IMG/VR virus record: IMGVR_UViG_3300031759_001473
Location: 1 to 23,899 of that record
DNA from: a virus
Reading direction: 5' to 3' (one strand)
Length of the DNA stretch: 23,899 bases
Part shown: positions 1 to 21,289 of the stretch, piece after piece
How positions within the stretch are numbered: the first letter of the stretch is position 1
Layout: every line of letters begins with the position of its first letter
Translations under genes and position numbers: made by a program
The notes under the pieces: model-generated
Database searches by the model: none
Told to the model about the DNA's origin: nothing
The model's input: the letters and a program-made list of their open reading frames with translations, nothing else

Positions 1-3000
1 GTTAATAGCAACAGGTTGTGTGCCAGAATCACTACCATTTATTGATATATTACCCCATCTACGATTGTAACTCCCAGTTACATTACCTAATGTAACTAAT
101 TGTAGATTACTTGATATTGCAATAATTGTAGCGTTGCCTGTGGCATTTGCCTGAGTAACGTAATTACCAACACTAGCAGATACATTGCCACTTAAAGTTA
201 ATATTGCAGAACTATAGACATTTGATGTTGCCTGATATGCCTGCCCATTATAACTTACAATAGAACTATTTGCTATAGTAATATTTGGTTGCCATACGAT
301 AACATTGCTGGAATATGTTGTGCGATCAAATACCAGTGTGGTGTTTATATTTCGTACTGTGTTATAGCTCTGATTTACAAACTGAGTATATGTACTTGTT
401 GATGTAACTGTGGTATTTAAATTTGCAAAGTCACTGAAAATATATTGGTTGCTTGCAAAGGTACCATTAACATCAATTAAGGTTATAATATTTCCGGTAC
501 TTGCGGTTTGCACAGTACCATAAGCACCTGTATTTGGTTGAGTAATGATATTACCTACATACACAGTAACATTTGTATTAGCAGTCAATGTAGTTGTTGG
601 TAGGCTTTCAATATAATATTTGTTCTTTAATACTGTATAACCCGCAGCACCAGTACCAGTTCCGTTAATTAGAATCTGTGGTTGGCTAGTATACCCGTGT
701 CCTGGATCAATAACTTCAAAGCCACTTATAGTATTATTAGTATAATTTACTGTGGCTATAATACTTGCTCCGGTACCGCCCCCGCCAGAAACTGTAACTA
801 CTGGTGGGCTAGTGTATCCAGATATTGTATAATTTGATGTTGTAATCGATACATTCGATGCTAGATTACTACCGTTACGATAGATATAAGTATTTCCTGA
901 ATAAGTGTTTGATGCAAATGTTCCGGTAATATTTGTTAAATGTATTACCGAATCTGCTATAGTTGAAGCATAGACAGTACCGGTTGCGCCGCTAATTGGT
1001 TGAGTTATCGTGTCTCCGGCAATTGCAGTTACGTTATTAAACAACGATAAAGTTGTCACTAATACATTGGCCGTAATTCCAGGATTTGTTAGAATTACTT
1101 TACTAATACCGTATGTGTGGTTATTATACCATTGATTATACTGTGGTAATGTACTTAGATTAGTTCCATCAGAGCTCAATGTTCCATTTGGACTACGATA
1201 TGCGTATGCATTTGCAGATGTTCCGGACTCGATATTGATATAAGTCGCAGGAATATCAAAATCTGTAGTGTCGCCATAGTACTCATCAGTACCTGCATAA
1301 TCTATTAGATATTCTCGGATACTGGTTCTATAAGGCTTTACCTCATTAATATAATTCTCATAATAATTTTGGTTATCAGGAATATAATTTGGTGGCTGAT
1401 TCAATTTTCTTAGTTGATGGAAGATGCTAATGAAACTTGTCTTAAATACCCAATCAACTGATGGTTGTTCTGTTAGGATATAATTAATCATAACAAAGAA
1501 TAACTCATTGAAATTTACCTGCAGATTATCAATAAAAATATTGTTTTGTATCGCATTAAAGATAATACGTATTTCATTTGTTGCAACATTTGAAGTGTAT
1601 AACTTGCTGCTTAGTTGTATGGTACCATTTTGTATGCCCACTAGGCTTTGTGTAGAATCTGTATTTACTCGATAAATTACAAATTGATTGTTACCATTAT
1701 TCAATACTTTGATTGTGTCCCCGACGGTTAAAGTCAGTGCAGATACATCAGTAACTGTGTTTACTACATGCGTAGGTAATACCGTAGAATCATATGAAGA
1801 ATCATACCAATCCGCAAAACTCCAATAGAATGGAGTATAATAGCGTTGTATTTGTGTTGCTATCCAGGTATTTGCAATTAAAACATAAGTTACCCATAAC
1901 CCATTTTCAGTTTCATCATTCAATACCAATACAGTATAGCCCATTGGTTTTGTAGATTTATCTATATACGATAATTCTGCATGGGTATCTACTTGTAAAT
2001 CATATGTTGTAGATGCTGGTAATGGGGCAGACTCATATAACGGTGTAATATTATATTCTTCCACAATTGGATTTTGAATTAATATTCCGTTAACATATTC
2101 TACAAAATTCTTTAAAGCTGTTAATCTATTGACAAACAATGTTTGATTTGGGTTTACTCCCAAACCAATACTAGTCTGCGGAGATAGGCCTGCATTCGGG
2201 ACTGCGGCACCATTGGCATCTATTCCGCTTAGGCTATCAACCATCTTGTTAATGATTCTAGTAGGAATTATACTACCGCCGTTACCTTCTTGGACTAATT
2301 GATATTCACTGTGTAGAATATTTGTATTCTTTAAGGTATCATAATCAGCATGAAGTGTAGTAGTGTTTCCAGTCAAATAATCACTGACCCCGTACAAACT
2401 GATAGTATCGCCACGCACTACTGCTGCATAAGGAATACTCTGAGCTTGTGGATTCTCTATCAAACTTGCAATTGTTGCTACAGTATTTTTATGAGTAGAT
2501 TTAATATCTAAACTAGTTTTTCCAGAAACCCAATAATAGTACTTGCTTGTTACTAATTTTGTAACAGGATTAATTTTACTTTCGACTACATAAGCACTAT
2601 TGTCCGGATATAATGGTGTTCCAGAGCCAGTATATGCGCTGGGAGGCATATCGCTTTCAACCCATTCGCATACTTGAATCTTACTTCCCGGGAATGTGCG
2701 TCCCCAATTATTTGTACGGTAAGATAAATCTCCTCGCTCATAATCTAAATAACGAACAGAATCAATATTCCACCAAGTCTGCGTCACTTGCTCAGGTCCC
2801 CAATGGAAATCTAGACTGTTTGCTAAATTAGGTGTACTGTCCACCCCACCAACTGTATTATAAACCGCAGGATCATAGGCTGTAATATAATCCAAATCTT
2901 CAGCGGCAGCGCCAAGAATTTTACCCTTTGCTGGATCAATGTAATCCAAATTGGTTAATAAAGTGTTATTAGAATTATTATACAAGTATAATCTACTGAT

Positions 3001-6000
3001 ACTGTCTATATCAACTTTTGGTTGTTGACTTTCAACTATATCCCAACCCACATTGCCACTGAAATTATTATAGGTATAATAAGTTCCGGCATTACTAATC
3101 GGCACATATGCCCCACTTAGAGGATCTATTGTTAAACTATTACTATCTCCAGGAGCACCGACTAGCATAGTGTTACCATTCATAGCAACGCTATATCCAA
3201 ACTGATCGTTTGTGCTAAGACTGCTATTGCGCAGGCGCTGAACTAATACATACTGATCCAATGTTGATGTTGTAAACGATCCATTTACTAAACCATATAT
3301 GTATACTGTTCCTGAACCTGCAATAGTATCTGCAAAACTAGTTGATCCATAGTCAAATAGTGTGGCATCCGAATCAAAAGTCACTGCATTGTATGCTCCG
3401 CCACCAACAGCACCAATTACTAATGAAGAACTATCAGGGCTTGATATAATTTGGCTTCCGAATTGAGTCACTTGATCAGTTTCTGGATGCAATAATGATT
3501 GCACACTGGTATGTACTGATATACCTAAATTTGCCAACGCATTGCTAGGTCCAGAACTTAATATTAGTTTCTGATACGGCGTAGCAACATTACTATTAAT
3601 TGTCAATGCCCCATATCCTTGGGCAATTGCAGAAACACCAGGTATGCCCGCCGAATTAATAGTTGCTGCTAGATTAGCTACAGTATTTGATGTAAATGTA
3701 ATATCAAAACCGTTAATACGCATACTGTCACCAGGAACAATTATTGGGTTTGTGTTACTGGTAATGGTACCATAACTTGCTCCTTGATTTACAAATCTAT
3801 AAACAATTCCGCTATAGTAACCGGGTGCGCTATATCCAGGGCTTGCTACATACACATCTGCATTGTTTCCAGCAAGATATGTTGTCAATCCAAATGCTGC
3901 ACCACTAGTAGGTGTAGGCGCAGTTAATTGCTCCAACTGTTGAATGGTGTTTGTATCTATAGTGATCAAAGATCCAATAACAGGTGTTGTGCTAAAAGAA
4001 ACTGCGTTTGAATTTGTTGTAAAACCAGTAGTTATTACATTACCGTTTAATGTTACTTTTAAGGTACTTGTGTTTATAGGATATTGAGTAAGGTATACTG
4101 AACCGTTGGCAATAAATGATTCTACACTACGATCATATACATAAACTGCGCCGGCAGCGTTAATTCCATTTACTGATTGGTACGGAGATCCAATTACGAC
4201 TTGTCGACCATCCGTAGTGGTTTTAATTGTGTGTCCAAACTGTGCATAAGCACTGCTGCCAACGGTAATCGTGTTAGTGTAACTATAATAACTTGTGGTG
4301 TTTGCATGGTAAACATAAACATTACCTGCATTAGGTGCACTTACATATAACCAGGTACCATCGGCACTTGCACTTACACTTGATCCAAACGCATCACCGG
4401 TATTACTACCCCAAGGGCTTGTCAATGTTTGATTCCAAGGGAAACTTATATTACCGTCAAATTTATGAATATGCACTCGACCATAATCAGTAGAACCATT
4501 ACCAGGATCACCAACATATAATAAATTGCCCGCAGTGTCTAAACTACTACCAAATTTACTTACGTTATTTCCTGGATGAGCACCGATATTAGCAACCTGC
4601 GTGAACGTGTAGTTGTTTGATACGTTTGCAACAAAGGCAATTACATTGCCATTGCCAAGTGTTGGTATTCCGGCCACTGCGAATGTTCCGCTGGTATTGA
4701 TAGCCACCACTTTACCAAAACCACCATTACCAACATAAGTATTTGCGGTTAGCTTCATGCTTGGATTTAAGAAACTTACATTGCCGACCCAAGGAGTTGA
4801 TTTATTGTAAACTGCCCATCCGCCAGTTATATCATCATTATCAACCCAAAGTTTGTCATTGTCCAACCATCCCTGTGGCGGGGTTATACTATTTAAATCT
4901 GTAGGTGCTTTAATTCTAGAACTTTGTAGATGGAATATAGATCCAGATCCAGTGATTTTCATTGCAGATTTTAGTTGATCGCCACGTTGACCATAGAATA
5001 CTACATTAAAATTATATGGATCAGTTACCGAATAAACTTGATAAAATCCATCTATTCTTACATCAAAGCCTTTGATTAAAACTAAATCGCCATAAACAAA
5101 ACTGTGTTGGCTATTAGTTGCCACAGTACCTATATTATCAACGCTATAACTTACATTAGTCACGCTTAAGTTAGTTTCTGTAACTCGATATACATTCCAA
5201 TTATTTGTTGCATCTTTAGCGCACCAAATTGTAGTCCCAATACCCATTGATTGGATATTAGCATTTAGTTGTGCGTAATATCCAGTGTCAAATATCGTAG
5301 TTGACACATCGTTTATATCTACATAGCCTGCAGTCTGTATGTCATTTTTATAATTACTGGTATTTGATCTGTTCAAATATATATTTGGCTGGAATCCAGA
5401 GCTTGCTATATATACGTTACTTGGATATATGCCAACTATATTGTTACTGCTTGTGGTGGCATTATTAGCTAATAATGTAAATGTAAACGGATCTCCGTTA
5501 AACGTGCTTTCGGTCAATACAACTTCAACATATTGATTATTGTTTAACGCACCGTATTCACCAACACGCATTGCCCATTCTTCATACAAACTTATATTAC
5601 TACTGATTCCGTTAAAACCTGCTGCAGTAAATGCTGTAATAGCGTTCTTTGTACCTTTTTCTCGGATAAAGCCTTGATAAAACTTTGCCTGTGTGACTTC
5701 ATCAATACCAAAGTTTGTTAAATAATCGCGTGGTTGGAATCCAATGGTGCTATCACTATACAAGTGGAAATCACCCAATGTTTCTGGGTTGTCAATATCA
5801 TTAAATCTATTAAACTTCTCGGCATTGTAACTAAAGTTTGGTAACAGTCCTGTCTTTAATTCTGAACTTGTCAATTGCGCCCAATAATTGGGGTTGAATG
5901 TAGTAGAGCCAACCACATCTTGAATTGCCGTGTATTTGTTACTCTTATAGCTGACCAAACTGCCCATGGCATAATCAGTGCCCTGTTGCCAAGCATCAAC

Positions 6001-9000
6001 GCTGGTGCTATTAAACATAAATCCAGGAGGATTCATTGCCCCGGTCCATGAGCCTGTTTTCTTACCAACAAGTTTAAGTCTGTACTGTCTATTACCTAGT
6101 TCCGGAACGTATATAATATCGTTAAAGACATCAATGTTATCAAAAATTATTACATGTTCGTATTCAACAATGTCCAATTTCACTAAACTTAAAGTTTGAC
6201 CGCTATTGGCAGTCACAGTAAACGTGTTACCATTTACAGTACTGGCCCTTGTAACTGACATTTGGTTATACTTGACAAAATTGTAATTTGTATCAAGAAT
6301 TCTACTTTGATTTGGTTGATTCTGTATTTTATCCACTACTCCAGAAGTGGTAGTTAAATTTAGTTTATTCAATATCGGACTTAATACTAGAACACTGCCC
6401 GCAGTCCATCCTTGTTGAGCCCATGTTAAAAATTCTTTTATACTTAATAAGAAATCTCGTTGTACTCCTAGATCAGGATCGACATCAGTTAATTGTATTC
6501 CAATTCCTCGCAAATATCGTTGATAACTTACTAAAAAATCAACTACCTGTTGGCGATTGGCAAATTCAAATCCATATGGTACTGCTACTTTGTACTTTTG
6601 ATAATCGTTGTAAACTACTCCAGCATCATTTAATACTGAAATAGTATAGGAATTATTATTTGCTAGACTTGGGATTATAGTAAAATATGGTGAGTCGAAA
6701 TCAAATCCGCTTACAGTAAATCCGCTGGCAGTTTTTTCAATCACAACTCCACTATATGTGATGGTATTCGTTGGGGTAGATTTATATAACTCAATCGTAT
6801 AACTCTCGTTAGGTATCACTACCCCGTTGTTTGTACTTGTTGGGCTACTTTGTTCTGCGACTACTTCAATAAAACTTTGATCAGTATACGCTGCCATCTT
6901 GTAGGCTAATTGTACTGTCACATTATCTAAATATTCGTATAGCTTTGTTCCGGGATCAATTCCTTGGTTACGTAAGTATTCTGCTATCCAGTTAACATAT
7001 CCTGCGGCTCTATAAGTAGTTGTTCCGTTTGATGTCCCGTTAACAGTAATTGCTGCTGGAGAGATACGTTGAAGCGAATCACTTAGAACGTATTGATTTA
7101 ACTTGGTATTTTTATAATAGCGGCCAATATCTATTAGACTACCGAAATAAAATGCTGGATGACTTAGTGCCAATGCCTGTTGCATTGCAAAGGCAAAATC
7201 ACTGCTACGACGCCATACTGTTTCGACAGGGCCGCAATCACCAATTTTAAAAGTACCGCTGGCATTACTGTTACTAGCACTTTTTACTGCGAAATCGTTA
7301 GGTGGGCGTAATGCGCCGGTATCATCTACAGGAATTAAATTTAATAAATCAGGGCGCACAAAACGTGCATCTGTATATGAATCACCGTTATTCCAAACAT
7401 AGCCTGCAGCTAGATCATTCCATAATACTAAATTACCGCCAGTATACGGTGCCGGACCATAACGGGTTTCCCACCATGATGGTTGTTCAGTAAAGCCCAG
7501 CATCTCCCAAGGATTTGTGTGTGGACGATCAGTATCATAAAAATACTTAAATATACCACGCCAATAGCCTAACAATGGTTCCCCGTCAATTGAGTCTACT
7601 AATTTATTGTAGTTCCAAGTAAAAGCATTGCCATTTACAAAATAACTATTAGTAATATAATCAACTCTATTACCACCAACCCATTGTAAAAAACTATCGG
7701 TTAATAGCTGGGTGAACTCTTGATTACTATAATCACTATCCCTAAACTTTCCGGGCATATAATCATAGATGTCAAATACATTTTTTGTGTAATCAACTTT
7801 AATATTATTGTAGATGCGTTTTTCAAACTCTAATAATAACTGATCACGGTAATCGCCCCAAGCAGGCGTAATACTACCATCATGACCCTGAATTACATTA
7901 ATTGGGTTTTGATATGTTGTATCTAAATAGATACTTGGTGTAAATTTAGGATACAACCCCAACTTGGTTGGTGTTTCTGGAATATAATTACCATCGGTAT
8001 TTGAATATTCGTTTATAGTAATTACGTCACCGACTGTCAGCGGAGCTGTTATTGTAACTCCCGAACGGGTAGCATCAAATGTATAATCTTGTCCCTTGAC
8101 CAATTGAACGTTATTTTGATAAACTAGCACAGCATTGTTGCTTAGAGTAGTGTCACTAAAAATATTCGATATTTCATAGTCTACTATCTCAGTACTTAAT
8201 ACTGTGTATGTTATGGTATTTTTAATGCTACCGTATGGTACCATATCGCTATAGTACCAAGCAAAACTTTTATTTTTTACTGCATTAATTTGTAATAATA
8301 ATGTGTCAAGTAATACTGGAATATTACTAAAATCTAATCCTGTAGTTCTAGTACTTAATTCTATAATTTTATTTTTAATTTTGCTATATTCATAGCGAGC
8401 CAAATCTAAACTTTTTATAAAATTTGTATCTGAATCGACTAAAAATAACTCGCTATACATCACTGGGCTTGCATGTTGCAATATACTTCCGCCCTGTGCT
8501 TTGATCTGCACATCACGCAGATTACTAACTCCTGGAACTACCCCACTGATTTGGTTGCTATTACCCACCATTGTTGTTAAATGGTTGCGCAATTGCCCTA
8601 ATGTTAGAGTTGAAAAATTAGCATTGGCACTGTTAAAATCCAAATTCTTTGGGATTTCGTAATAACCCTGTTGGCTTATTTGACTACTATTATAAATTAA
8701 TATATCAATTTGATCACCAGCAACCAGCGATGAATCTGTTATATGTGCGTAACTAAGTACCCCGGTAGGTGTTACAATCGAGTAATTCTTAGATTCTATA
8801 CTGTTAATGTATACTCTAAAGTAGGGGGTTGATGCCTCAGTAGATGCCGGAATATCAATCTTAAAATACGGATTATTACCGTCATATATTCCGCTTATAA
8901 TTTGAAACTGTTTAGACTTTTCTGTATTAGTAGTCCAAGTATTTCTTAAATTATAATCAGTTAGACTTGTATTTTGTTGTAGTGTACCAACATTGTTGAT

Positions 9001-11289
9001 TGCAACGCCAACTACATCTAATTGTGTACTATTATCATGATAATCAAACGTATCAGTATCAAAGTTATTAGTGAATTGAATATCACCAATTTGGTTAAAG
9101 TTTCTATAACTTAATGGGAAACCCAGCACTGGGTCAGATGCGCCTGATCCCTGCTTATATGAAAATATTGGAGTCCCGACAAATGTACTATTTGAATATG
9201 TGCTTAGACTTACATCATTACTATCAATAACATCAAACATTGGTGCTTGATTTATGCCAGTTTTTTGTTGCCCTTTGTGCCAATTTGCGCCATCGTACCA
9301 GTATTCAATTCCTTTGTTAGGTCCCTGTAATACTACCAAATTATTATTTGGGCTTATTACATAATCAGTTGCTGGTACCAAATTAATCACATTTGCAGAG
9401 AGTGCTGGAATGTAAACGATATTAATTTCAAAAATTTGATTTCTTACTGTAGGATCAAAGTCATTGGCAAATATAACTCGCATACCCTGCGTTAGAGCAG
9501 GAGTTGCAGCATAACTTACACCATTAACAGTTGCTGCCGGAATGTTGTAACCAGCAGTTTGCAGTTCTATTGTGGTTCGGGCATCTGTAATTGTAAAATC
9601 TATTAGATCCACAGGTGCTTTGGCTACTCGACCAAAGTTATATAATTGTAAATCTGCTTCAAATTCAATAATAGGACGGGTCGCACGTAGAGCTTGGTTT
9701 AATATTGGTGTGGTATTATTGTATTGTGCTGTTGCATTTATAATATCAATATGAAACCATCTATTACTTCTTGTCCAAGGATTTAAATCACTACTGGCTC
9801 GATTAATTGTAAGATAGTCTAAATTAGCGATGCCATTAGCCGCGTATGCTTCGGGAGTTTGAAAAGTTGATACGTCTAATAATTTTATAGAGTCACCAAC
9901 ACCTTCTATATAATATGTATTACCTGCATAACTACTTGGAACTGCACTAGAGTCAAACGTTACTTTTAATCCGTTACTGAATATAACACCGTTTGGACTT
10001 TGATAATTTTTTGCTCCAATGATATCTGTGTCGACATTTACTGTAGTATCAGTTACCACTAACAATTCTAGTTGGCCTGCATAAGATGCATCGACACCAT
10101 CTTGGTAATAAATTACTGGTAATGGTGCAGTAATGTCTGGCATTGGTTTAAACACATTATAGATTAGATAATCAGAATCTAAATAATAACTATACTCTGC
10201 ACGACTAACGCCAGATTTAACAAAAACTTTCTGCCCCGCAGTGATTGTAAATGCCTGAGCTAACGGATTTAATGTTACTATAGGATCAGCATCATTGCTT
10301 AATGTTATTTGCCAAGCATTTAATCTATTTGCAACAGGAACAATCTGTGAATTAGCTGTCCAAAATATAGCATCAAGATCTCCGTTAACAAAAATTAACG
10401 ATTTTAAATTTATTTGGTTGGATGAGCTTACCCCATCAAATCCGCCCTCACTAGTAGCAACTATAGTGCTTAATCGTTGCCCTTGCACTTGACTATAATG
10501 AAGTTGCGTACTTAAATCAACAACACCAGCTAGGTGCATACGTACATAATTGTCTTGTGCAGTGGGTTGTGGTACGTTAAAAGTTATAGTGCCAACGTCA
10601 GCACCATTATTAGTTACACCGAGTACATTTCTACTGCTTAGATTTGTCTGATTTAATTTTAGACCAGATACCCCAGGACTTGACTGTATCCAGAATGGAT
10701 ATCCGGGTTGGTTCACAATGAATGTGTACGTGCCACCATAGGCTAATCTAATTGTGGGATTATCAACACCGTTGGCAGTCGAGAACATGTAGCTACCAGT
10801 ATTTGGATTACGTGTTACTGTGAATGTTTCTTGGGTAGGAACTTGTGCACCAAATACTGAAATAGCATCGGGGCCATCTTCTAACCAATAATATTGTGCA
10901 AAGTTCACAAATTTGTCAAAATCAAACAAGCCATCAAAACTATAAGATTCATTAGCAAACATTCTAGTTTGATTATCAGTCAATCCGCCGTAATGATTAA
11001 CTTGATTAATCAAATCAATATAACTACTAAAAAAATCAATGTTGTCGGTAGTTTTGTTTTTAACAACAACACTAGGCTCAAGTTGATAGTTTTGTCTTAA
11101 AGTCGTAGGTTCGGGAACATAATTATCTGTGCTTTTAAATGTAGGAGCAAACTTACGGCCAATGTAACCATTAATATTTCTCAAATCAGGTTGAGTTACT
11201 AATTGGTCCAGTGTGGCATTTAAAAACTTTTGATTTGTGTCTGTTCTAAAAACTTCTGGTAGGAAGTTGCTGGTTTTTATTTGTGCCAT
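1..11289 (-). CDS. Giant baseplate-associated virion protein, partial (C-terminus beyond window)
   Basis: An ATG at 11289 opens a frame that I read codon by codon to position 1 without meeting a stop, giving at least 3,763 residues; the 3' end lies outside the window. The start lies one base after the gp6 stop (TAA-T-ATG), so the two genes are probably translationally coupled. The protein is rich in Asn, Thr, Ser and Tyr and mostly beta-like, unlike a helical tape measure. Visible blocks are an N-terminal head (MAQIKTSNFLPEVF), PWTRSNRWFH at 504-513, YWYDG...NQAP at 663-683, HDGS at about 1136, DRPH..PWEM at 1254-1263, GDCGPVETVWRRS near 1370, a carbohydrate-binding-like module at 1764-1805, a seven-fold FG-GAP propeller at about 2185-2745, EVKPYRTSIREYL at 3316-3328, and short beta repeats after about 3420. 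From memory, similar giant structural proteins occur in marine T4-like phages. It sits where T4 has gene 7; a role as outer wedge or host-contact protein is inferred. Confidence 0.85.
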   Translation of the reverse strand, partial: MAQIKTSNFLPEVFRTDTNQKFLNATLDQLVTQPDLRNINGYIGRKFAPTFKSTDNYVPEPTTLRQNYQLEPSVVVKNKTTDNIDFFSSYIDLINQVNHYGGLTDNQTRMFANESYSFDGLFDFDKFVNFAQYYWLEDGPDAISVFGAQVPTQETFTVTRNPNTGSYMFSTANGVDNPTIRLAYGGTYTFIVNQPGYPFWIQSSPGVSGLKLNQTNLSSRNVLGVTNNGADVGTITFNVPQPTAQDNYVRMHLAGVVDLSTQLHYSQVQGQRLSTIVATSEGGFDGVSSSNQINLKSLIFVNGDLDAIFWTANSQIVPVANRLNAWQITLSNDADPIVTLNPLAQAFTITAGQKVFVKSGVSRAEYSYYLDSDYLIYNVFKPMPDITAPLPVIYYQDGVDASYAGQLELLVVTDTTVNVDTDIIGAKNYQSPNGVIFSNGLKVTFDSSAVPSSYAGNTYYIEGVGDSIKLLDVSTFQTPEAYAANGIANLDYLTINRASSDLNPWTRSNRWFHIDIINATAQYNNTTPILNQALRATRPIIEFEADLQLYNFGRVAKAPVDLIDFTITDARTTIELQTAGYNIPAATVNGVSYAATPALTQGMRVIFANDFDPTVRNQIFEINIVYIPALSANVINLVPATDYVISPNNNLVVLQGPNKGIEYWYDGANWHKGQQKTGINQAPMFDVIDSNDVSLSTYSNSTFVGTPIFSYKQGSGASDPVLGFPLSYRNFNQIGDIQFTNNFDTDTFDYHDNSTQLDVVGVAINNVGTLQQNTSLTDYNLRNTWTTNTEKSKQFQIISGIYDGNNPYFKIDIPASTEASTPYFRVYINSIESKNYSIVTPTGVLSYAHITDSSLVAGDQIDILIYNSSQISQQGYYEIPKNLDFNSANANFSTLTLGQLRNHLTTMVGNSNQISGVVPGVSNLRDVQIKAQGGSILQHASPVMYSELFLVDSDTNFIKSLDLARYEYSKIKNKIIELSTRTTGLDFSNIPVLLDTLLLQINAVKNKSFAWYYSDMVPYGSIKNTITYTVLSTEIVDYEISNIFSDTTLSNNAVLVYQNNVQLVKGQDYTFDATRSGVTITAPLTVGDVITINEYSNTDGNYIPETPTKLGLYPKFTPSIYLDTTYQNPINVIQGHDGSITPAWGDYRDQLLLEFEKRIYNNIKVDYTKNVFDIYDYMPGKFRDSDYSNQEFTQLLTDSFLQWVGGNRVDYITNSYFVNGNAFTWNYNKLVDSIDGEPLLGYWRGIFKYFYDTDRPHTNPWEMLGFTEQPSWWETRYGPAPYTGGNLVLWNDLAAGYVWNNGDSYTDARFVRPDLLNLIPVDDTGALRPPNDFAVKSASNSNASGTFKIGDCGPVETVWRRSSDFAFAMQQALALSHPAFYFGSLIDIGRYYKNTKLNQYVLSDSLQRISPAAITVNGTSNGTTTYRAAGYVNWIAEYLRNQGIDPGTKLYEYLDNVTVQLAYKMAAYTDQSFIEVVAEQSSPTSTNNGVVIPNESYTIELYKSTPTNTITYSGVVIEKTASGFTVSGFDFDSPYFTIIPSLANNNSYTISVLNDAGVVYNDYQKYKVAVPYGFEFANRQQVVDFLVSYQRYLRGIGIQLTDVDPDLGVQRDFLLSIKEFLTWAQQGWTAGSVLVLSPILNKLNLTTTSGVVDKIQNQPNQSRILDTNYNFVKYNQMSVTRASTVNGNTFTVTANSGQTLSLVKLDIVEYEHVIIFDNIDVFNDIIYVPELGNRQYRLKLVGKKTGSWTGAMNPPGFMFNSTSVDAWQQGTDYAMGSLVSYKSNKYTAIQDVVGSTTFNPNYWAQLTSSELKTGLLPNFSYNAEKFNRFNDIDNPETLGDFHLYSDSTIGFQPRDYLTNFGIDEVTQAKFYQGFIREKGTKNAITAFTAAGFNGISSNISLYEEWAMRVGEYGALNNNQYVEVVLTESTFNGDPFTFTLLANNATTSSNNIVGIYPSNVYIASSGFQPNIYLNRSNTSNYKNDIQTAGYVDINDVSTTIFDTGYYAQLNANIQSMGIGTTIWCAKDATNNWNVYRVTETNLSVTNVSYSVDNIGTVATNSQHSFVYGDLVLIKGFDVRIDGFYQVYSVTDPYNFNVVFYGQRGDQLKSAMKITGSGSIFHLQSSRIKAPTDLNSITPPQGWLDNDKLWVDNDDITGGWAVYNKSTPWVGNVSFLNPSMKLTANTYVGNGGFGKVVAINTSGTFAVAGIPTLGNGNVIAFVANVSNNYTFTQVANIGAHPGNNVSKFGSSLDTAGNLLYVGDPGNGSTDYGRVHIHKFDGNISFPWNQTLTSPWGSNTGDAFGSSVSASADGTWLYVSAPNAGNVYVYHANTTSYYSYTNTITVGSSAYAQFGHTIKTTTDGRQVVIGSPYQSVNGINAAGAVYVYDRSVESFIANGSVYLTQYPINTSTLKVTLNGNVITTGFTTNSNAVSFSTTPVIGSLITIDTNTIQQLEQLTAPTPTSGAAFGLTTYLAGNNADVYVASPGYSAPGYYSGIVYRFVNQGASYGTITSNTNPIIVPGDSMRINGFDITFTSNTVANLAATINSAGIPGVSAIAQGYGALTINSNVATPYQKLILSSGPSNALANLGISVHTSVQSLLHPETDQVTQFGSQIISSPDSSSLVIGAVGGGAYNAVTFDSDATLFDYGSTSFADTIAGSGTVYIYGLVNGSFTTSTLDQYVLVQRLRNSSLSTNDQFGYSVAMNGNTMLVGAPGDSNSLTIDPLSGAYVPISNAGTYYTYNNFSGNVGWDIVESQQPKVDIDSISRLYLYNNSNNTLLTNLDYIDPAKGKILGAAAEDLDYITAYDPAVYNTVGGVDSTPNLANSLDFHWGPEQVTQTWWNIDSVRYLDYERGDLSYRTNNWGRTFPGSKIQVCEWVESDMPPSAYTGSGTPLYPDNSAYVVESKINPVTKLVTSKYYYWVSGKTSLDIKSTHKNTVATIASLIENPQAQSIPYAAVVRGDTISLYGVSDYLTGNTTTLHADYDTLKNTNILHSEYQLVQEGNGGSIIPTRIINKMVDSLSGIDANGAAVPNAGLSPQTSIGLGVNPNQTLFVNRLTALKNFVEYVNGILIQNPIVEEYNITPLYESAPLPASTTYDLQVDTHAELSYIDKSTKPMGYTVLVLNDETENGLWVTYVLIANTWIATQIQRYYTPFYWSFADWYDSSYDSTVLPTHVVNTVTDVSALTLTVGDTIKVLNNGNNQFVIYRVNTDSTQSLVGIQNGTIQLSSKLYTSNVATNEIRIIFNAIQNNIFIDNLQVNFNELFFVMINYILTEQPSVDWVFKTSFISIFHQLRKLNQPPNYIPDNQNYYENYINEVKPYRTSIREYLIDYAGTDEYYGDTTDFDIPATYINIESGTSANAYAYRSPNGTLSSDGTNLSTLPQYNQWYNNHTYGISKVILTNPGITANVLVTTLSLFNNVTAIAGDTITQPISGATGTVYASTIADSVIHLTNITGTFASNTYSGNTYIYRNGSNLASNVSITTSNYTISGYTSPPVVTVSGGGGTGASIIATVNYTNNTISGFEVIDPGHGYTSQPQILINGTGTGAAGYTVLKNKYYIESLPTTTLTANTNVTVYVGNIITQPNTGAYGTVQTASTGNIITLIDVNGTFASNQYIFSDFANLNTTVTSTSTYTQFVNQSYNTVRNINTTLVFDRTTYSSNVIVWQPNITIANSSIVSYNGQAYQATSNVYSSAILTLSGNVSASVGNYVTQANATGNATIIAISSNLQLVTLGNVTGSYNRRWGNISINGSDSGTQPVAIN
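61..1040 (-). repeat. Short beta-strand repeats in the distal part of the giant protein
   Basis: Three copies of a roughly 36-residue module are encoded at 910-1020 (AGDTITQPISGATGTV...ITGTFAS), 451-558 (VGNIITQPNTGAYGTV...VNGTFAS) and 67-171 (VGNYVTQANATGNATI...VTGSY). The shared pattern is GD/GN-x-I/V-TQ, a Gly-rich turn, then a beta hairpin ending in N-V/I-x-G-T/S-F/Y. Between the first two lie two copies of a GYTS-x-P motif followed by a Gly/Thr-rich turn, at 766-825 and 646-708. The copies have diverged, so this is a protein-level repeat and not a recent DNA duplication. Such modules are common in phage fibre and adhesin proteins. More copies may lie beyond the left edge. Confidence 0.6.
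3061..4740 (-). repeat. Seven FG-GAP repeats: predicted beta-propeller inside the giant protein
   Basis: Seven FG motifs, each followed by a short beta segment, a Gly-rich turn and usually a V/I-Y-x-Y/F strand, start at residues 2191, 2246, 2301, 2351, 2466, 2610 and 2697. Examples are FGSSVSASADGTWLYVSAP, FGHTIKTTTDGRQVVIGSP and FGYSVAMNGNTMLVGAPGD. Copies 1-4 are spaced 50-55 residues apart; copies 4-5 and 5-6 are separated by extra inserts. This is the pattern of FG-GAP blades (integrin alpha type, FG-GAP_2-like), and seven is the usual number for a closed propeller. A binding role at the baseplate surface is inferred. Confidence 0.75.
5876..6000 (-). other. Carbohydrate-binding-like module (CBM5/12 type) in the giant protein
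   Basis: Residues 1764-1805 read AWQQGTDYAMGSLVSYKSNK, then YTAI, and close with F-N-P-N-Y-W-A-Q-L. The order AW-x(4-5)-Y-x-x-G-x-x-V-x-Y-x-x-x-x-Y-x-A and a closing W matches the short chitin/cellulose-binding modules of CBM5/12 type. A second, weaker copy of the same pattern (VWQPNITIANSSIVSYNGQA) lies at about 187-300. Sugar binding is inferred from the pattern alone. Confidence 0.45.
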
Positions 11290-11290
11290 A

Positions 11291-14200
11291 TTAAATTACG
11301 ATTCCTAATCCTGCGAGGGTTTGATTAATTTGTGCCGCGGTAATTGCACTTATGATTTGTACATTATTTGCGGTTGCTGCACTTACCATGATTTCATTTG
11401 GGTTTGCATTAATTTGTAGCAGACTTCCAAAGGCAATATTTGTATTGCTGGGTACTATGATAATGCTTGCTACATTTGGTGCTAATACATTATGCAAGTA
11501 TGTACTTAATTCACTAAAATAGAAAGTATCACCGAAGCTCCAATTGCTAGGATCAAAAAATTGATTAATCGCTGCAATAGTACTACTTATTATATCAGTA
11601 TCACTTACGTTTACATTAGGATTTTTAACAATCTTAAATGTTGCCTGCAGATTACTATCTGCTTTATCGCCAAATAAAGGTTTGTAAACTCCCGAATTAT
11701 AAACAATGGTGTCACTTAAAGCCTTATAATTTTCAAGACTAGTTGAGCCAGTGCCGTATAAAGTTTTTAAATCATCATTTGACGGTGGGGTTGGCTCTGT
11801 TAAAGTTCCAGTAGTATCTTGAATCCAAGCAAGATAATCTTGACTGTATTGGGTAGTTAGAATATACAAGTCCATAATATTATTGGGGCTTGGGTCTATT
11901 CTACGATCATTAGGACTACTATGTCTATATTGGAAATAGAGTTGTTGTCTGCCTGTTTCAGCAATATAGTTTGTTAGCGGGCTACTTAATATTCTTGTAG
12001 TTGAGCTTCCGTTTGTAGTCACCGTCAATTGATAAAAATTGTTTTCACTAGTTGCGTAAAATATTTGCCCGTTTACATATAATGTTAGCGCTGCATTGAT
12101 CGCACTTTGTGTGGCATAGCTTGTCACTACTGTGGTATTATCTACAGGTATAGTTGTGATAAAGTTATCAGTGTCTGTTACCTCTGTGAAGAATACATAT
12201 TTTTTGTTTGGATTTACTGTGGGTGCAACAATATTAGTAAACAAATCTGGATTATCTGGAGTACCACTGTTATTTGTGTCCGGAAATGTCAATAAAATTT
12301 CTGTATTATTGACATAACCATCAAGACCTATTACAGAATCGTGTATATACCAAGTACTGTCTTGTCCGATTGGAGTTGAGCTATCAGCCTGGGTATTTGT
12401 TTTTAATACTGTAATTTGATCAGTGATTGTTAGTCCAGTTTTACTGTCAAACACTTTAACTTCTGGATCAAAATAAAATCTTGTTTCGCCAACACTTTGG
12501 AATACGTATTGAAGCCCTCGATGAACTATATTATAGTTTATGCCGTTGTATGTAAGTGCCACAAGCCAACTTGAATCTAATCCAGTACCAGCGGTACTAC
12601 CTTGATTAGTAAGACTGAATGCACCGAGATTTAAATCTTGTGGTAATATAATTTGCCAAGATTGTTTTGATACATTATAACTTAATCCAATGTTTTGATA
12701 ACTTTGCAGTAATCTAATCATCTGTGATGTAAATGATGATCCAGGTAAATCATTTTTAAACACTGGAATAATTGTATCAACTACTGCACCTGTGGGGATA
12801 TTAACGCTTAATTGTATTGGGAACCCGGCATTTGAGCTTACTACGGACGCCCATAGGTATGTATTCTCATTTGGGTATGTACTTGTGCCTGTTTGGATAG
12901 TATTCTGCGCATCAAAAAATTTACCAGCGCCTGCGTTAAATCTTATCAATGAACCAGTTGTGATATATTGTAAATTACTACTTACCCCAAATCCAATTTG
13001 ATAAGGTGTTACATAACTTGTTGTTGGATAAAAATATCCTGTACTACTATTACTTGATGCGCTAGATTGTCCCCAATAGGTTGATGTTGTTGGTGTATAT
13101 CTTGGAAAGTTTGCATAGTAGTAATGCAACATGTCTTTACTAGCTATCAATGGTTGTACAGTATTATAGATTACATTATATAAATCTGTGGGTGTATTAA
13201 AGCTAAAAGTATTGCTAGTTGTAGGAGTTTGGGTATATATTATTCCGTCATCACAGAATATATTTGTGCTGGAGTATTTGCCAGTGACATCTAATACATC
13301 TAAATATCTACTAATTCCGCTACTGCTACGATTAACTGCTTTTACTTTTAAAATACTACCAAAGTTTGTGTACGGGAATAGATTGTAATCTTCTCCGGTA
13401 ATCATACGATTTTGTGTGTAGTATTGTGCCGGTGCTTTTGTGCGAATATCGTCTATACTTTCACGAGTCTGACTGTTATTAACTGTGTAATATAGACTTG
13501 CGCTAATTGTAAGAGTTTCCACTTTATTGTTACGACTTACGTAATTTAAGGGAATAGTAATATTCTGCATTTCATCGGGTGTTACTTTATATTGCAGTCC
13601 GTTACTAGTTCTATAGTAAAGTCTATATACACCCTGCGGAATATTTGCAAAACTGCCATCACCAAATACTAAATCAATTTGATCATTAGTCTTTGAGTTT
13701 ATTTGATATAGGTTTCTATTTGTGCTTTGATTATAGATGATGTTTATACCGGCGATTGCAGGCACTGCACTCCATTCTGTAGTAGGATTGCCTTTTACAT
13801 CTAATTCGTATAGCCATACGTCTGTGTTATTAATATTATTATAGTTTACATTTACAACACGATTAGGTAAACTTTGTTGCAAATTAAAATCTTGTGTGGC
13901 CAAAGATCCCTGTTTAAAATAAACAAAAAATCCAGTATTATTACTACCGTTTCCTAAATTATCATTGCGATAAAGAATATTAAATTTGCCCGAAGGAGTA
14001 GGATTAGGTTCGTATATGTAATTTTGATTTACTGTAGTAGCACTAACTGCTTCAAAATTAACTTGGTTACCCTCTACTAGAGCGTTAAAACTATACTTGG
14101 GCAACACTCCGGGAACTAGATTAATACTGTACTCATCAGTCTGAATCCCATTAATTGATTGGCTTGCCCCTGGTTTTCCGATTGCTTGATTGGTGATGAT

Positions 14201-14689
14201 TGACGCATTTAAAATCGTAGTCATCTGCTCTTGCCAATCAGGGTTGGCGGTGTCATTCCACGAAATTAGTAAATTGCTTAGGTTTAGCCCGTTACTGTCA
14301 AATAGATTTTCGGTAGTTTTTACACTATCTATTTTTAAAAACCCGCTGGCAGTGATATTACGTTTGGGATTATAGCTGATTAATCGAGCAAGTTTTAGAA
14401 TACTATCACGACGTTCTGCAGTGTCAAAGAAGTTTTCGCGGGCATTCATATCGCCACGGAAAGCCAAACTTTGACCTAAAAATGCGATTAAATCTATTAG
14501 AGCAACGTATTCACTACTCTCTGTAAAGTCATTAAAATCTTCAGGGTAGTATGTACGCAAGTAGTCAATCATGGTCTTGCGTAGAGTTTCAAAGTCGTAG
14601 CTTTGGAAATCAGCTTGTTTGAATGTTTGGTAAACCTGTGTCCAATCCTGATTTACTAATAAATTTGTCTGACGAGTAGTTATTGACAT
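11291..14689 (-). CDS. gp6: Baseplate wedge protein gp6 (baseplate J-like), enlarged
   Basis: The product has 1,132 residues, against about 660 for T4 gp6. In T4, gp6 dimers form the ring that joins the wedges around the hub and control baseplate opening. The N-terminal 120 residues (YVALIDLIAFLGQSLAFRGD, ARENFFDTAERRDS) are typical of gp6. A baseplate-J core follows at about 335-460, with an FGDG motif at 342-345 and the segment SIDDIRTKAPAQYYTQNRMI. The last 110 residues (FFDPSNWSFGDTFYFSELS) also match the gp6 C-terminus. The extra length lies in the middle, roughly 480-1020, and is beta-rich. The gene lies between gp25 and the giant gene, as in the T4 order 25-6-7. The ATG at 14689 follows a 52-base gap holding a late-promoter-like box; the stop is one base from the next ATG. 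Confidence 0.92.
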   Translation of the reverse strand: MSITTRQTNLLVNQDWTQVYQTFKQADFQSYDFETLRKTMIDYLRTYYPEDFNDFTESSEYVALIDLIAFLGQSLAFRGDMNARENFFDTAERRDSILKLARLISYNPKRNITASGFLKIDSVKTTENLFDSNGLNLSNLLISWNDTANPDWQEQMTTILNASIITNQAIGKPGASQSINGIQTDEYSINLVPGVLPKYSFNALVEGNQVNFEAVSATTVNQNYIYEPNPTPSGKFNILYRNDNLGNGSNNTGFFVYFKQGSLATQDFNLQQSLPNRVVNVNYNNINNTDVWLYELDVKGNPTTEWSAVPAIAGINIIYNQSTNRNLYQINSKTNDQIDLVFGDGSFANIPQGVYRLYYRTSNGLQYKVTPDEMQNITIPLNYVSRNNKVETLTISASLYYTVNNSQTRESIDDIRTKAPAQYYTQNRMITGEDYNLFPYTNFGSILKVKAVNRSSSGISRYLDVLDVTGKYSSTNIFCDDGIIYTQTPTTSNTFSFNTPTDLYNVIYNTVQPLIASKDMLHYYYANFPRYTPTTSTYWGQSSASSNSSTGYFYPTTSYVTPYQIGFGVSSNLQYITTGSLIRFNAGAGKFFDAQNTIQTGTSTYPNENTYLWASVVSSNAGFPIQLSVNIPTGAVVDTIIPVFKNDLPGSSFTSQMIRLLQSYQNIGLSYNVSKQSWQIILPQDLNLGAFSLTNQGSTAGTGLDSSWLVALTYNGINYNIVHRGLQYVFQSVGETRFYFDPEVKVFDSKTGLTITDQITVLKTNTQADSSTPIGQDSTWYIHDSVIGLDGYVNNTEILLTFPDTNNSGTPDNPDLFTNIVAPTVNPNKKYVFFTEVTDTDNFITTIPVDNTTVVTSYATQSAINAALTLYVNGQIFYATSENNFYQLTVTTNGSSTTRILSSPLTNYIAETGRQQLYFQYRHSSPNDRRIDPSPNNIMDLYILTTQYSQDYLAWIQDTTGTLTEPTPPSNDDLKTLYGTGSTSLENYKALSDTIVYNSGVYKPLFGDKADSNLQATFKIVKNPNVNVSDTDIISSTIAAINQFFDPSNWSFGDTFYFSELSTYLHNVLAPNVASIIIVPSNTNIAFGSLLQINANPNEIMVSAATANNVQIISAITAAQINQTLAGLGIVI

Positions 14690-14719: not shown

Positions 14720-14743
14720 AAAAAATAAACTACGTAGTTTATT
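14720..14743 (-). terminator. Palindrome plus T run at the gp25 stop: possible weak terminator or RNA-end hairpin
   Basis: Positions 14724-14743 form a perfect 20-base palindrome centred on TACGTA. It overlaps the gp25 stop codon at 14742-14744. In minus-strand RNA it could fold as an 8-bp stem with an ACGU loop, followed by a run of U (14725-14720). The layout is that of an intrinsic terminator, but the stem has only two G-C pairs, so full termination is doubtful. It may instead mark an RNA processing or protein-binding site. Confidence 0.35.
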
Positions 14744-15128
14744 AGTAAGGGCCACCAGCAGTTAGACTGCTCGAATTCGCATCAAATTGTAGGCTAAGAA
14801 CTGTAGATTGATTTGTAGGGATAAAGACTAAATCAAGTTCGATTTGAATACCATAATCCTGGCCTGTGATTGTTATATTTTGGAGTCCGATTCGTGGATC
14901 ATATGCCACAATATTTTTAACGTCATCAATTATTAGCTGATTCGCATGTTCATCCAATGGCTCAAACAACATGCTCCATATAATGCTACCAAAATTTGGT
15001 TGCATCAGTTTCTCGCCTTTTCGTACGTTGAAGTGATTAATCAAATCCTGTTTGACTAAATTGACATCAGTCGCACGAAATTTTTTACTGCGATTTACTG
15101 TGCTAAACCCTTTGTATAATGTTACCAT
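14742..15128 (-). CDS. gp25: Baseplate wedge protein gp25
   Basis: The product has 128 residues, close to T4 gp25 (132). The family (GPW/gp25) forms the inner baseplate wedge and contacts the sheath, where it primes sheath assembly. Visible family features are VNLVKQDLINHFNVRKGEKL at about 23-42, then MQPNFGSIIWSMLFEPLDEH, which is the usual P-x-F-G-x-x-I-x-x-L-F-E-P core, and a closing beta sheet (DYGIQIELDLVFIP). The ATG at 15128 lies eight bases after the gp5 stop. Only a distant GGAG precedes it, so translation may depend on the upstream gene. Order and size agree with T4. Confidence 0.95.
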   Translation of the reverse strand: MVTLYKGFSTVNRSKKFRATDVNLVKQDLINHFNVRKGEKLMQPNFGSIIWSMLFEPLDEHANQLIIDDVKNIVAYDPRIGLQNITITGQDYGIQIELDLVFIPTNQSTVLSLQFDANSSSLTAGGPY

Positions 15129-15136
15129 AATAGTAT

Positions 15137-18100
15137 TTATTGCTCCGAGTTAGCCAATTGTATGTGTACTGCATCAGGCTTGCTGAATGTGCCGCCCCAA
15201 CGCAATCCGTATTGTGCAAGGTCGACAGTTCTAGCGATTAGCGGGCATTGACTACTATCAATTGCCACACCACTGTTGTGTGGGCTGCCTGTACCTCCCG
15301 CACTAGCTGGTTTCGCAGGGGTTGTTATGCCCCCGGCAGTTGGATTATTTGGTCCACCACCAGCTGCTAGCCATTTCTGATAGATTGCTTCTTGATCAGC
15401 TGGACTACGGTATGCACTGGTAATAGTTATTTTTGCTCCGGTACTGGTTTTAAAATCCTGTGCCATAGTTAATATTGCATTTTTAAATGTACCATTAAGT
15501 TGATCAAAATTACTTCTAGTTCCGGTACCATTTCCTTGGAATGTAAACACATCATCAGGATTAATCCCTGTTGTATTATCACCACCAAGACTCGCAACTC
15601 CGGTGGTAGTTGCAGCACCGCCTGCAGACAACACATCAATGGCGTATCTACCCTGATTATAATAGTCGGAACCATTGCGCCCGTATGCATCTTCCAATAA
15701 ACCCTGCTTGCGCCATTCTAATGCAGAATCTACACTTCTAAATTGATGTGCAACAAATAGCATGCCTGCTGCCATACAAATATCATCACTAGTGGTTATT
15801 CCACCATTACTCAGTAATGCGGTATAGTTGTCAGTGAACTCATTAAATTGTATAGTGTCTTGAACATTAGGGTTACTAAAGAAGTCATCTTGGCTTTGTA
15901 TACCGTCTTTACCAGTCCAACTTTCACTGTTACTCAGAGTCGATGTGCCGTATTGGTTTATAGCATCTGGCTTAATGTATCCGGCATCGGCTAGGTATTG
16001 TGCATCAACTTGATACTTGCCAATCCTAGTAGAATCATCACTGACCATACTGTAATTAAATTGACTTTCAAAATATCCTAATTCAGCCATTAGTGCTTTT
16101 ACCTGTTGTTGGGTAAACTTGGGCGAACTAGTACCAATACCTCCTGGAGGGTTAAAAGTTGTTGATTTCTTTAGGAACTCTGCAGGACAAGTATTGCCAA
16201 CAACTTGCGTTCCGGCGGCATTAGTGATACCATCGTCTCCAGTTTGTGCTGGACTATTTCCCGATTCTTCGGTGCGTACAGGATTACCTGATCCGTCAGT
16301 TACAGTAGATCCGTTACTTGTAGTTAATACTCCGCCTGATTGTTGGCCAGCATTTGCCAATGCCTGTTTTACTGTAGCCTGATGCGTTGCAATCTGCGTT
16401 GCCACCATATCTACAGTAATATACCCAACGGCATGTCCTGGATCAAATGCAGGATTTGCATTATATTGTGGACTGCCACCAGGCCATATCACGAAACTTC
16501 CGGGCTTGCCCACTGCTGCAGGCCATAAAATAGTCAAGTAAATATCCACTAGGCGTGGACTTGGTGCTTTGCCATTTAGATTATTAAATTGAAAATACTT
16601 AGTAACGTATTGACATTGTGTGGCTCGATCCATTGCCCGCAATGCATCAGTAGTAGTACCAATGCTGGTTGCAGCTGCTTTACCGAATTGGATAAGTCCA
16701 GTATAGCCCAAGCTATTAGTAATTGCCGGATCCATTGTACCACCGGTTTCTAAATGCATACATGCCAACATGTCTATATAACTTAGGTTTAATGTATTTG
16801 CAGATAGTTGCACGGCGTTAATAAAATCTGTATCTGTGGTCCAAGGAGTCGGTCTTCCTTTATCAAGATTATTACCATTAGGTGGAGGTAACGTATTATT
16901 AATCGCGCCACCGCCCATCTTAGGAGTACATACACTACTGCCAACTTCTTTAGTCAACGGAGCCGGCGTTCCAGTTCTTACCCAAGGCTCATGACTTGGT
17001 AGTATAGTAACTACGCTATCAACTGCCTGTGGTACACTACTCCAAAGTTTAGTTAAACTACTGTCGTATGTAGTGTCTGCAAGTTTATTCTTGGGAATGA
17101 CTGGGCATGAAATACTATTTCCGCCACTGCCACCGTTTAGATCAAGAGTACTACCATCAATCTTCATTGCGGACGCGGAACTCATGTTGAGTTTGCCATC
17201 ACTGCTGACAATAACTTGACCACCGCCCATGCTCATCTTGGCACCGTATATCAGCGTACTGTCTGCACCACCAATTTTAATCTGTCCGCTGGTCATAGTT
17301 GTTGCCGTTGCGCTATCCATATTGATACTGCCGCCGGCCTGCATGTTGATATCATTGTCGGCATGTAGATTTAGTGTACCTTCGGTGCGTATACTTAAAT
17401 CACCACCTGTATAAACTTTAATACCAGTATCATCTATCTCTACCCAGCTGGTACCATTCTTATGAGCAATGTACATTGTACTTTGATCATCGTTCATTAG
17501 TATTTGATGTCCACCAGCTGTTCGTAATCTTATTAATTGATCAACACCATTCGCATCACCATCGTCCATGACAAAAGTGTGCCCACCTTTACGACTGGGT
17601 ACTGCAAATTGATCCGGAGGTATTGTGCCACTGGCTACTTTAGTTGCATAGTCTGGATCATCAGCAGGATCTTTTGTCAATGCTCGACCTGGAGTACTGA
17701 TACCAAAAACATGGCTCGGGGTTTCTCTTTGACTGCTACTACTTATTGCCCCACGAACTTTATCTCGATCCAACCCCTGCTGGAATAATATATTTGCTTG
17801 GAATTCATGTATTGGTTTGGCATTATTATAAAATACGCTGTCGAAATAGTTTTCAACATTCTCGTTAAACTCTGCCACAGGCAAATATTGCGGGGGTACA
17901 TGATTTTCAGGAAGAATACTGGCTTTAATGTCAGCACTGGCACTGTTACGATCAACAAAATTGCCCGCGGCCATTGCCGGTACCATCCATTGACTTATTC
18001 CGGGGCTAATACAAGCAAACCAATAACCCCTACCAGGTTGTCCGTTTACGAATGTACATAATACTTGACTACCTATATCAGGGGGAGTCATCCACATACC

Positions 18101-18382
18101 GTATGTGTGGTGTACGTCGGCAAATTTATTATTAATATCGCCTGCTTGTGCAAAGGTAGTCCCAAAATAAGGACTAGCATAATTTACCTTACGCCAATTA
18201 TGTTCACTATTTTCATCTCCCCCAAAGTCAGGAATCCACACACGCAGTCTACCGTTTCTTGCAGGTGCAAGATTGTCCTTGACTATGCCTACATAAGTTC
18301 CGGTGTCGTTTTTAACCCCGGCAACCGATTCTCGGTCAAAGTTCTTTGCTATTTTTTTGCCTACTACGCCATCTTGTGCCAT
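15137..18382 (-). CDS. gp5: gp5-type baseplate spike with two lysozyme-like domains and an M15-type peptidase domain
   Basis: The product has 1,081 residues, against 575 for T4 gp5, the cell-puncturing spike. Residues about 25-135 form the gp5/VgrG OB-fold (YVGIVKDNLAPARNGRLRVW; WFACISPG). Residues about 262-425 are the triple-stranded beta-helix region, with repeats such as GGHQILMNDDQSTMYI and GTLNLHADNDINMQAGGSIN. A transglycosylase-like domain follows at about 510-680, with CMHLETGG and GYTGLIQF; the candidate catalytic Glu is E545. A second lysozyme-like domain spans about 740-920, with YFESQFNYS (candidate E772) and GKYQ at 788-791. Residues about 955-1081 carry SPHNSGVAID (1033-1042) and VHIQ (1072-1075), the S-x-H-x-x-G-x-A-x-D and late-His signature of M15/VanY zinc peptidases. 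In T4 the single lysozyme lies between OB-fold and helix; here all three enzymes follow the helix. Activity is inferred from motifs. Confidence 0.9.
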   Translation of the reverse strand: MAQDGVVGKKIAKNFDRESVAGVKNDTGTYVGIVKDNLAPARNGRLRVWIPDFGGDENSEHNWRKVNYASPYFGTTFAQAGDINNKFADVHHTYGMWMTPPDIGSQVLCTFVNGQPGRGYWFACISPGISQWMVPAMAAGNFVDRNSASADIKASILPENHVPPQYLPVAEFNENVENYFDSVFYNNAKPIHEFQANILFQQGLDRDKVRGAISSSSQRETPSHVFGISTPGRALTKDPADDPDYATKVASGTIPPDQFAVPSRKGGHTFVMDDGDANGVDQLIRLRTAGGHQILMNDDQSTMYIAHKNGTSWVEIDDTGIKVYTGGDLSIRTEGTLNLHADNDINMQAGGSINMDSATATTMTSGQIKIGGADSTLIYGAKMSMGGGQVIVSSDGKLNMSSASAMKIDGSTLDLNGGSGGNSISCPVIPKNKLADTTYDSSLTKLWSSVPQAVDSVVTILPSHEPWVRTGTPAPLTKEVGSSVCTPKMGGGAINNTLPPPNGNNLDKGRPTPWTTDTDFINAVQLSANTLNLSYIDMLACMHLETGGTMDPAITNSLGYTGLIQFGKAAATSIGTTTDALRAMDRATQCQYVTKYFQFNNLNGKAPSPRLVDIYLTILWPAAVGKPGSFVIWPGGSPQYNANPAFDPGHAVGYITVDMVATQIATHQATVKQALANAGQQSGGVLTTSNGSTVTDGSGNPVRTEESGNSPAQTGDDGITNAAGTQVVGNTCPAEFLKKSTTFNPPGGIGTSSPKFTQQQVKALMAELGYFESQFNYSMVSDDSTRIGKYQVDAQYLADAGYIKPDAINQYGTSTLSNSESWTGKDGIQSQDDFFSNPNVQDTIQFNEFTDNYTALLSNGGITTSDDICMAAGMLFVAHQFRSVDSALEWRKQGLLEDAYGRNGSDYYNQGRYAIDVLSAGGAATTTGVASLGGDNTTGINPDDVFTFQGNGTGTRSNFDQLNGTFKNAILTMAQDFKTSTGAKITITSAYRSPADQEAIYQKWLAAGGGPNNPTAGGITTPAKPASAGGTGSPHNSGVAIDSSQCPLIARTVDLAQYGLRWGGTFSKPDAVHIQLANSEQ

Positions 18383-20980: not shown

Positions 20981-21289
20981 TTAAATACCTAAGTTAGTAA
21001 CAAGTGTAGTCTTTTTAGGAATAAAAATTGTTACGCCTGCTTGAAAATCAAATATCGGATCATCTAGGCTATTGGGGTTACGTGCTTTGAATACCCACCA
21101 TAAACCACTATCACCATATAAATCATATGCTAACAAATCGGGACGATATTGGTAAGTCCCGTTAATGGTAAACGATACATCATCTGGTTGTTTATCAATT
21201 GATCTATTAACTAAAAGATCTAAAAACTGCCCACCAAAAGTATTTGTGTTATAGTATGGACTAGATTTGCTATAAGTTACTGTAGTCAT
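20981..21289 (-). CDS. gp53: Baseplate wedge protein gp53
   Basis: The product has 102 residues, shorter than T4 gp53 (196). In T4, gp53 clamps the inner wedge proteins and allows wedges to join around the hub. The family core is clear: YQYRPDLLAYDLYGDSGLWW at about 47-66, then VFKARNPNSLDDPI and a C-terminal LysM-like strand (TIFIPKK). It lacks the extra length of the T4 protein but matches the short versions in marine T4-like phages. Its ATG overlaps the upstream stop by one base (TAATG), and a GGAGGA lies eight bases before it within the last codons of the upstream gene, so translation is both coupled and well initiated. Confidence 0.9.
   Translation of the reverse strand: MTTVTYSKSSPYYNTNTFGGQFLDLLVNRSIDKQPDDVSFTINGTYQYRPDLLAYDLYGDSGLWWVFKARNPNSLDDPIFDFQAGVTIFIPKKTTLVTNLGI

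Follow-up and report, generated by a model that had tools for sequence, protein, structure and literature searches.

A giant protein of the PHROG_10938 virion structural family in the gene 7 position of a T4-like baseplate operon

Directly after a gp6-like wedge gene, the DNA analyzed here carries a reading frame that, as a sequence-only reading had correctly noted, is more than three times the size of T4 gp7 (1,032 aa). The window, by which we mean the whole stretch of DNA that was analyzed, comes from IMG/VR (IMGVR_UViG_3300031759_001473) and is a fragment 23,899 bases long. The question posed by this locus, which we consider to be of moderate interest, is whether an otherwise conserved (gp6)2-gp7 wedge contains a hidden gp7, or whether gp7 has been replaced.

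The frame is read on the minus strand from the ATG at 11289 to base 1, a run of 3,763 codons without a stop, and exits the window at its left end. As the sequence-only reading had it, the giant begins one base past gp6 (1..11289 against 11291..14689, both on the minus strand). When extended leftward through a second IMG/VR contig (L002), which shows 0 differences from the window over 14,835 bases, the frame ends at a stop after 4,201 codons. The stop or frameshift that the sequence-only reading had allowed for is found nowhere within the frame; L002 is identical, and the homologs are intact. At the base composition of the window, 3,763 codons without a stop would arise by chance with a probability of ~10^-123. 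Comparison with the giant gene of locus L003 gives a dN of 0.21 and a dS of ~3.4 (saturated), which indicates strong purifying selection. Homologs were sought in IMG/VR by two scans, the first yielding 40 loci and the second, a motif scan, at least 596 confirmed places, from which 80 were kept. A complete and intact single-ORF homolog of 3,326–5,099 aa is present in 76 related loci, a count that includes loci of cultured phages as well as a few contigs that are duplicates, and four further records contain frames without a stop that are 6,194–6,311 aa in open-frame length. Because of these 76 loci and the strong purifying selection, together with the identical independent contig, there is virtually no chance that the frame is an assembly artifact or a pseudogene read-through, an explanation already refuted and favored by the unusual length and nothing else. 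The long frame is genuine, and its product has 4,201 residues. In two related loci the gene takes different forms: at L018 (10001–24628) it is one ORF of 4,875 aa, and at L019 (10001–24628) a stop at 23266 leaves the C-terminal ~430 residues in an ORF of their own, which reflects either a genuine split of the gene or an error in the sequencing.

The giant matches the PHROG_10938 profile, annotated as "virion structural protein", with E = 0 and 1,049.5 bits in four stretches across the core. Membership was judged on three features, and all are found here: the core profile match, a place directly after a gp6-type wedge gene, and a single chain of more than 3,300 aa. Judged by its sequence, the giant belongs to this known family and is not new in kind. 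The earlier statement that its function is not established holds for the details, but this family has already been recognized and annotated. The annotated relatives come from jumbo phages or from records in the jumbo-phage group, and comprise Atu_ph07, Phosso, PA5oct and its relatives, SCTP-2, Vibrio phage 2.275.O, RaK2/K64-1, GAP32, CBB, 121Q/PBECO4, and Erwinia, Serratia, Salmonella and Xanthomonas relatives. Like the window's protein, the PHROG_10938 giants of RaK2 (gp465/ORF070w, 3,326 aa), CBB (CBB_236, 3,340 aa, the homolog at locus L045), PA5oct (gp355, 3,857 aa) and Atu_ph07 (gp180, 4,449 aa) lie after gp6, and they share its core at ~25–31% identity. The window's branch differs from them in its extra cupredoxin-like and FG-GAP inserts and in coming from uncultured phages; we found no cultured close relative of this branch, and a near-identity DNA search among annotated phages gave no match to the window. 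In K64-1, the place of the giant is occupied by many separate hypothetical proteins in NC_027399.1 and by one protein in AB897757.1, and the discrepancy in NC_027399.1 is probably an annotation problem.

Members of the family have been found in virions. Mass spectrometry of CBB virions detected CBB_236 through 21 peptides that cover 7.72% of it (PMC5259590), and a coverage of ~8% is too low to prove one intact chain. The record of PA5oct gp355 carries an ESI-MS/MS note. In phAPEC6, gp245 (381.88 kDa, 17 peptides) appears in the virion table and adjoins the gp244 baseplate wedge protein (PMC7247149); we infer from its size, the gene order and close kinship to 121Q that gp245 is a PHROG_10938 protein. 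From the virions of these relatives, the family is known to be part of the virion; the same would hold for the window's protein through its family, which supports the virion structural role first proposed. In the literature consulted, the PHROG_10938 giant is placed in no jumbo-phage baseplate by a structure or by immuno-EM.

The surrounding genes support the assignment to the gene 7 position of a T4-like baseplate operon, that is, the slot right after gp6. The segment 1..11289 holds the first 3,763 of the 4,201 codons of the giant gene, and continuing along the same minus strand are the genes for a gp6-like baseplate wedge protein of 1,132 aa (11291..14689; phrog_10646, 3.7e-294; phrog_219, 1.1e-22), a gp25-like wedge protein (14742..15128; PF04965, 6.2e-10; phrog_43), a gp5-like hub protein with an OB domain (15137..18382), a virion structural protein of 860 aa (18395..20977; phrog_11190), a gp53-like wedge protein (20981..21289; phrog_7145, 1.7e-27; PF11246, 2.4e-4), and a virion structural protein of 288 aa (21289..22155; phrog_12050). 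The C-terminus of the hub protein resembles a VanY/M15 D-Ala-D-Ala carboxypeptidase and stands in place of the T4-type lysozyme. A gp55-like late sigma factor is encoded on the plus strand (22269..23150; phrog_12791, 9.6e-81), and its gene is adjoined by a homing-endonuclease-like ORF bearing NUMOD3/NUMOD1 (23221..23892, plus strand). Apart from local insertions, the window, PA5oct, RaK2 and CBB share one gene order, namely gp55, structural, gp53, structural, gp5, gp25, gp6, giant, and of this order Atu_ph07 and Phosso retain gp25, gp6, giant. In Salicola phage SCTP-2, the gene directly before the giant (L053, 6633–15923) is also giant and encodes 3,096 aa; a blastp comparison of this protein with the gp6 proteins tested gave no match, and gp25 lies ~90 kb away. 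Downstream of the giant are fiber-like genes and, a short distance away, an ORF of ~200 residues, which is seen in L003 (23398–24039), PA5oct, Atu_ph07, Phosso, SCTP-2 and Vibrio 2.275. These downstream ORFs are alike by size and place, and could be candidates for an obligate partner of the giant.

Alignment with divergent members divides the giant into a conserved core of ~2,350 residues, with ~100 near-invariant positions, and variable inserts in between. The proposal that modules are inserted between conserved blocks is borne out by this alignment, and the four sequence blocks named at the outset are conserved and all lie within the core. Its five segments, all on the minus strand, are residues 1–150 (10840..11289), residues 401–1050 with the WTRSNRWFH and YWYDG blocks (8140..10089), residues 1101–1750 with the DRPHTNPWEMLGF block and the highest conservation (6040..7989), residues 1805–2050 with FYQGFIREKGT (5140..5877), and residues 2751–3390 with EVKPYRTSIREYL (1120..3039). 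Even in distant jumbo phages, W505/N509/W511, W670, P1256/P1260/W1261 and K3318/P3319 are near-invariant. Also conserved are the N-terminal ~60 residues, whose low pLDDT when predicted in isolation suggests that they may acquire their fold only in contact with a partner.

The inserts, also on the minus strand, are of several kinds. Residues 151–400 (10090..10839) are beta-rich, give weak cupredoxin-like Foldseek matches, and are missing from RaK2, CBB and Vibrio 2.275. Residues 1766–1803 (5881..5994) form a CBM_5_12 chitin-binding-like module (Pfam, 9.8e-6; Foldseek match to 1ed7, TMt 0.73) that Pfam recognizes in 7 of 10 relatives; this module was the only part matched when the PDB was searched by sequence with the single protein and with core profiles. 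Residues 2051–2750 (3040..5139) make up an FG-GAP repeat insert (Pfam FG-GAP_2, 1e-15), with motifs at residues 2246 and 2351 in a poorly conserved surrounding region. Finally, a variable C-terminal region with GGGGTGA/GxGYT beta repeats starts in 1..1119 and runs on to residue 4201 in L002. The repeat, found at residues ~3500–3560 of the L002 giant and in L056, is shared by several structural proteins of cyanophages and jumbo phages, and triggers false gp8 signals in family searches.

The giant occupies the same slot as the T4 gp7 wedge subunit, between gp6 and the downstream peripheral or fiber genes, but it is four times longer and resembles gp7 in neither profile nor fold. With HMMER, the giant has no significant match to gp7 (phrog_964), and when the whole family, or pieces of its core, are compared with gp7 by HHalign, the probabilities are 0.1–1.6%; the profile comparison proposed at the outset thus shows no gp7 relationship. 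Overlapping structure predictions gave the same outcome. AlphaFold2 models of residues 1–1200 and 1100–2050 have mean pLDDT values of 86.9 and 83.3. Neither has a Foldseek match in the PDB at E <= 0.001, and the 50 best matches listed include no gp7; the models cover residues 1–2050 of 4,201, and the method can miss small shared domains when queries are long and multi-domain. Against predicted viral proteins, the named strong matches are Atu_ph07, of the same family, or uncharacterized phage proteins. The weak matches of the two models in the Foldseek searches include fiber and spike parts (CBA120 TSP4 and the A-1(L) tail fiber). The T4 gp7 profile also finds no match in the 11 large relatives examined, which include six full cultured-phage records, whereas the gp25 control is recovered in all 11. 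In these 11 records, gp8 (phrog_977) gives nothing convincing, with one weak 28-position match in Atu_ph07, and gp10 (phrog_958) matches lie elsewhere in the relatives, mostly as short N-terminal pieces, plus a PA5oct fiber. The suggestion that several wedge or fiber proteins are replaced in function by one chain is not established, and no recognizable gp8 or gp10 core domain was found in the giant.

Three apparent likenesses were examined. Cyanophage-gp8 (phrog_438) matches inside the giants fall only at profile positions ~186–300, and we read them as shared beta repeats and not as gp8 proper. An N-terminal likeness of LPEIFR to FPAIYRE, seen by eye, was rejected by a positional HMM test. The likeness of FYQGFIREKGT to FYSTKG, also seen by eye, is in register but falls within the null with a broadened gp7-core profile (score of 17.8; shuffled mean of 16.8, maximum of 26.1), a profile slightly diluted by a P-HM1 row that was cut at the wrong YYQSKG site. 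Position would favor gp7, whereas sequence and the predicted structure of residues 1–2050 appear to speak against it.

Giant chains are also found directly after gp6 in cyanomyophages, where they range from 1,942 to 6,076 aa and several are named gp7 or VrlC. They include Syn9 gp101 (6,076 aa), the P-HM1 "gp7 baseplate wedge initiator" (4,446 aa), the ACG-2014h "VrlC" (3,533 aa), and the giants of S-CAM7 (~4,300 aa), ACG-2014f (~4,200 aa), B23 (2,845 aa) and S-H34 (~1,940 aa). VrlC appears to substitute for gp7 in cyano- and pelagimyophages (PMC7029224). As in the window, a single giant chain comes right after gp25-gp6; however, no core homology is detectable between the two groups, and a small T4 gp7-like motif, FYSTKG..SYKFLFKLLY, is detectable only in the cyanophage proteins. 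Syn9 does share the GGGGTGA/GxGYT beta repeats (gp101, gp103 and gp104), a weak criterion given that such repeats occur in other phage proteins. At the other extreme, the minimal gp7 counterpart of Vibrio phage XM1, gp17, has 242 aa and holds the spikes in place by means of its flexible segments (PMC10457771). Seventeen times shorter than the giant and compared with it by role alone, it would be analogous as a gp6-type dimer partner that carries spikes. Since XM1 gp17 anchors spikes, a fiber-carrying protein in the gp7 slot has precedent. Therefore, taken together with the cyanomyophage giants, growth of the gp7 slot by added modules is a recurring theme, and the window's giant adds another example, from a lineage in which the core cannot be recognized as gp7.

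These comparisons bear on whether the giant is a true gp7 ortholog that has diverged past sequence recognition and been enlarged by inserts as in the cyanomyophages. It sits in the same genomic slot, the cyanophage giants annotated as gp7 or VrlC hold the gp7 motif, and FYQGFIREKGT (residue 1870) is the site at which profile comparison repeatedly puts that motif. However, the match is not significant (P = 0.03–0.2), the score lies inside the shuffled null with the broader profile, and the gp7 N-terminal motif LPxF(I/V)xxE is not found at the N-terminus of the giant. We therefore regard orthology to gp7 as possible but doubtful.

The reading that we prefer, with a probability of roughly 0.6, is that the giant is a wedge scaffold of the RaK2/PA5oct/Atu_ph07 lineage that sits in the slot of gp7 and carries fiber-docking or sugar-binding modules. 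We favor it because the operon order is conserved, relatives contain the protein in their virions by mass spectrometry, and gp7 is found in none of the 11 relatives, and also because fiber-like genes lie downstream and the core is interrupted by lineage-variable inserts. One chain of ~4,200 residues would most likely lie at the baseplate periphery beside the gp6/gp25/gp53 wedge, with the core of ~2,350 residues docking on that wedge. The core would take on the job of gp7, most likely as a bridge from the gp6 dimer to peripheral parts and fibers. The cupredoxin-like, chitin-binding-like, FG-GAP and GGGGTGA-repeat inserts would then project outward, where their most likely functions are fiber docking or weak binding of surface sugars.

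The same modules could belong to a peripheral fiber, whisker or spike-anchoring protein, with the role of gp7 filled by another protein. The carbohydrate-binding-like and FG-GAP modules, the fiber and spike parts among the weak Foldseek matches, and the tail whiskers present on CBB-like phages (PMC5259590) are in line with this. We nevertheless consider it unlikely, given that the gene stays closely linked to gp6/gp25 even in highly divergent phages and that the large core, with its near-invariant residues, is unlike typical fibers; moreover, no alternative gp7 candidate was found. It is very unlikely that the giant is a polyprotein cut after synthesis into several baseplate proteins. Its size and the separate C-terminal ORF at L019, which suggests that parts can be separable, are compatible with cleavage, but a Pfam search found no protease domain and the RaK2 paper reports no signs of processing for the proteins that it discusses, among which the giant is not singled out.

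Within the wedge-scaffold reading, a bolder and more tentative version is that the core is a scaffold that has no relation to gp7 and a fold absent from the PDB, and that replaced gp7 and perhaps gp8/gp10 in a large aquatic jumbo-phage lineage and reaches more than 6,000 residues by way of surface-binding modules. The adsorption organelles of jumbo phages are among the most elaborate known, and the RaK2-like protein in the gp7 slot has been annotated merely as "structural". The family is common, as the number of places confirmed from one motif shows, and the boundaries between core and inserts offer testable pieces for cryo-EM model building.
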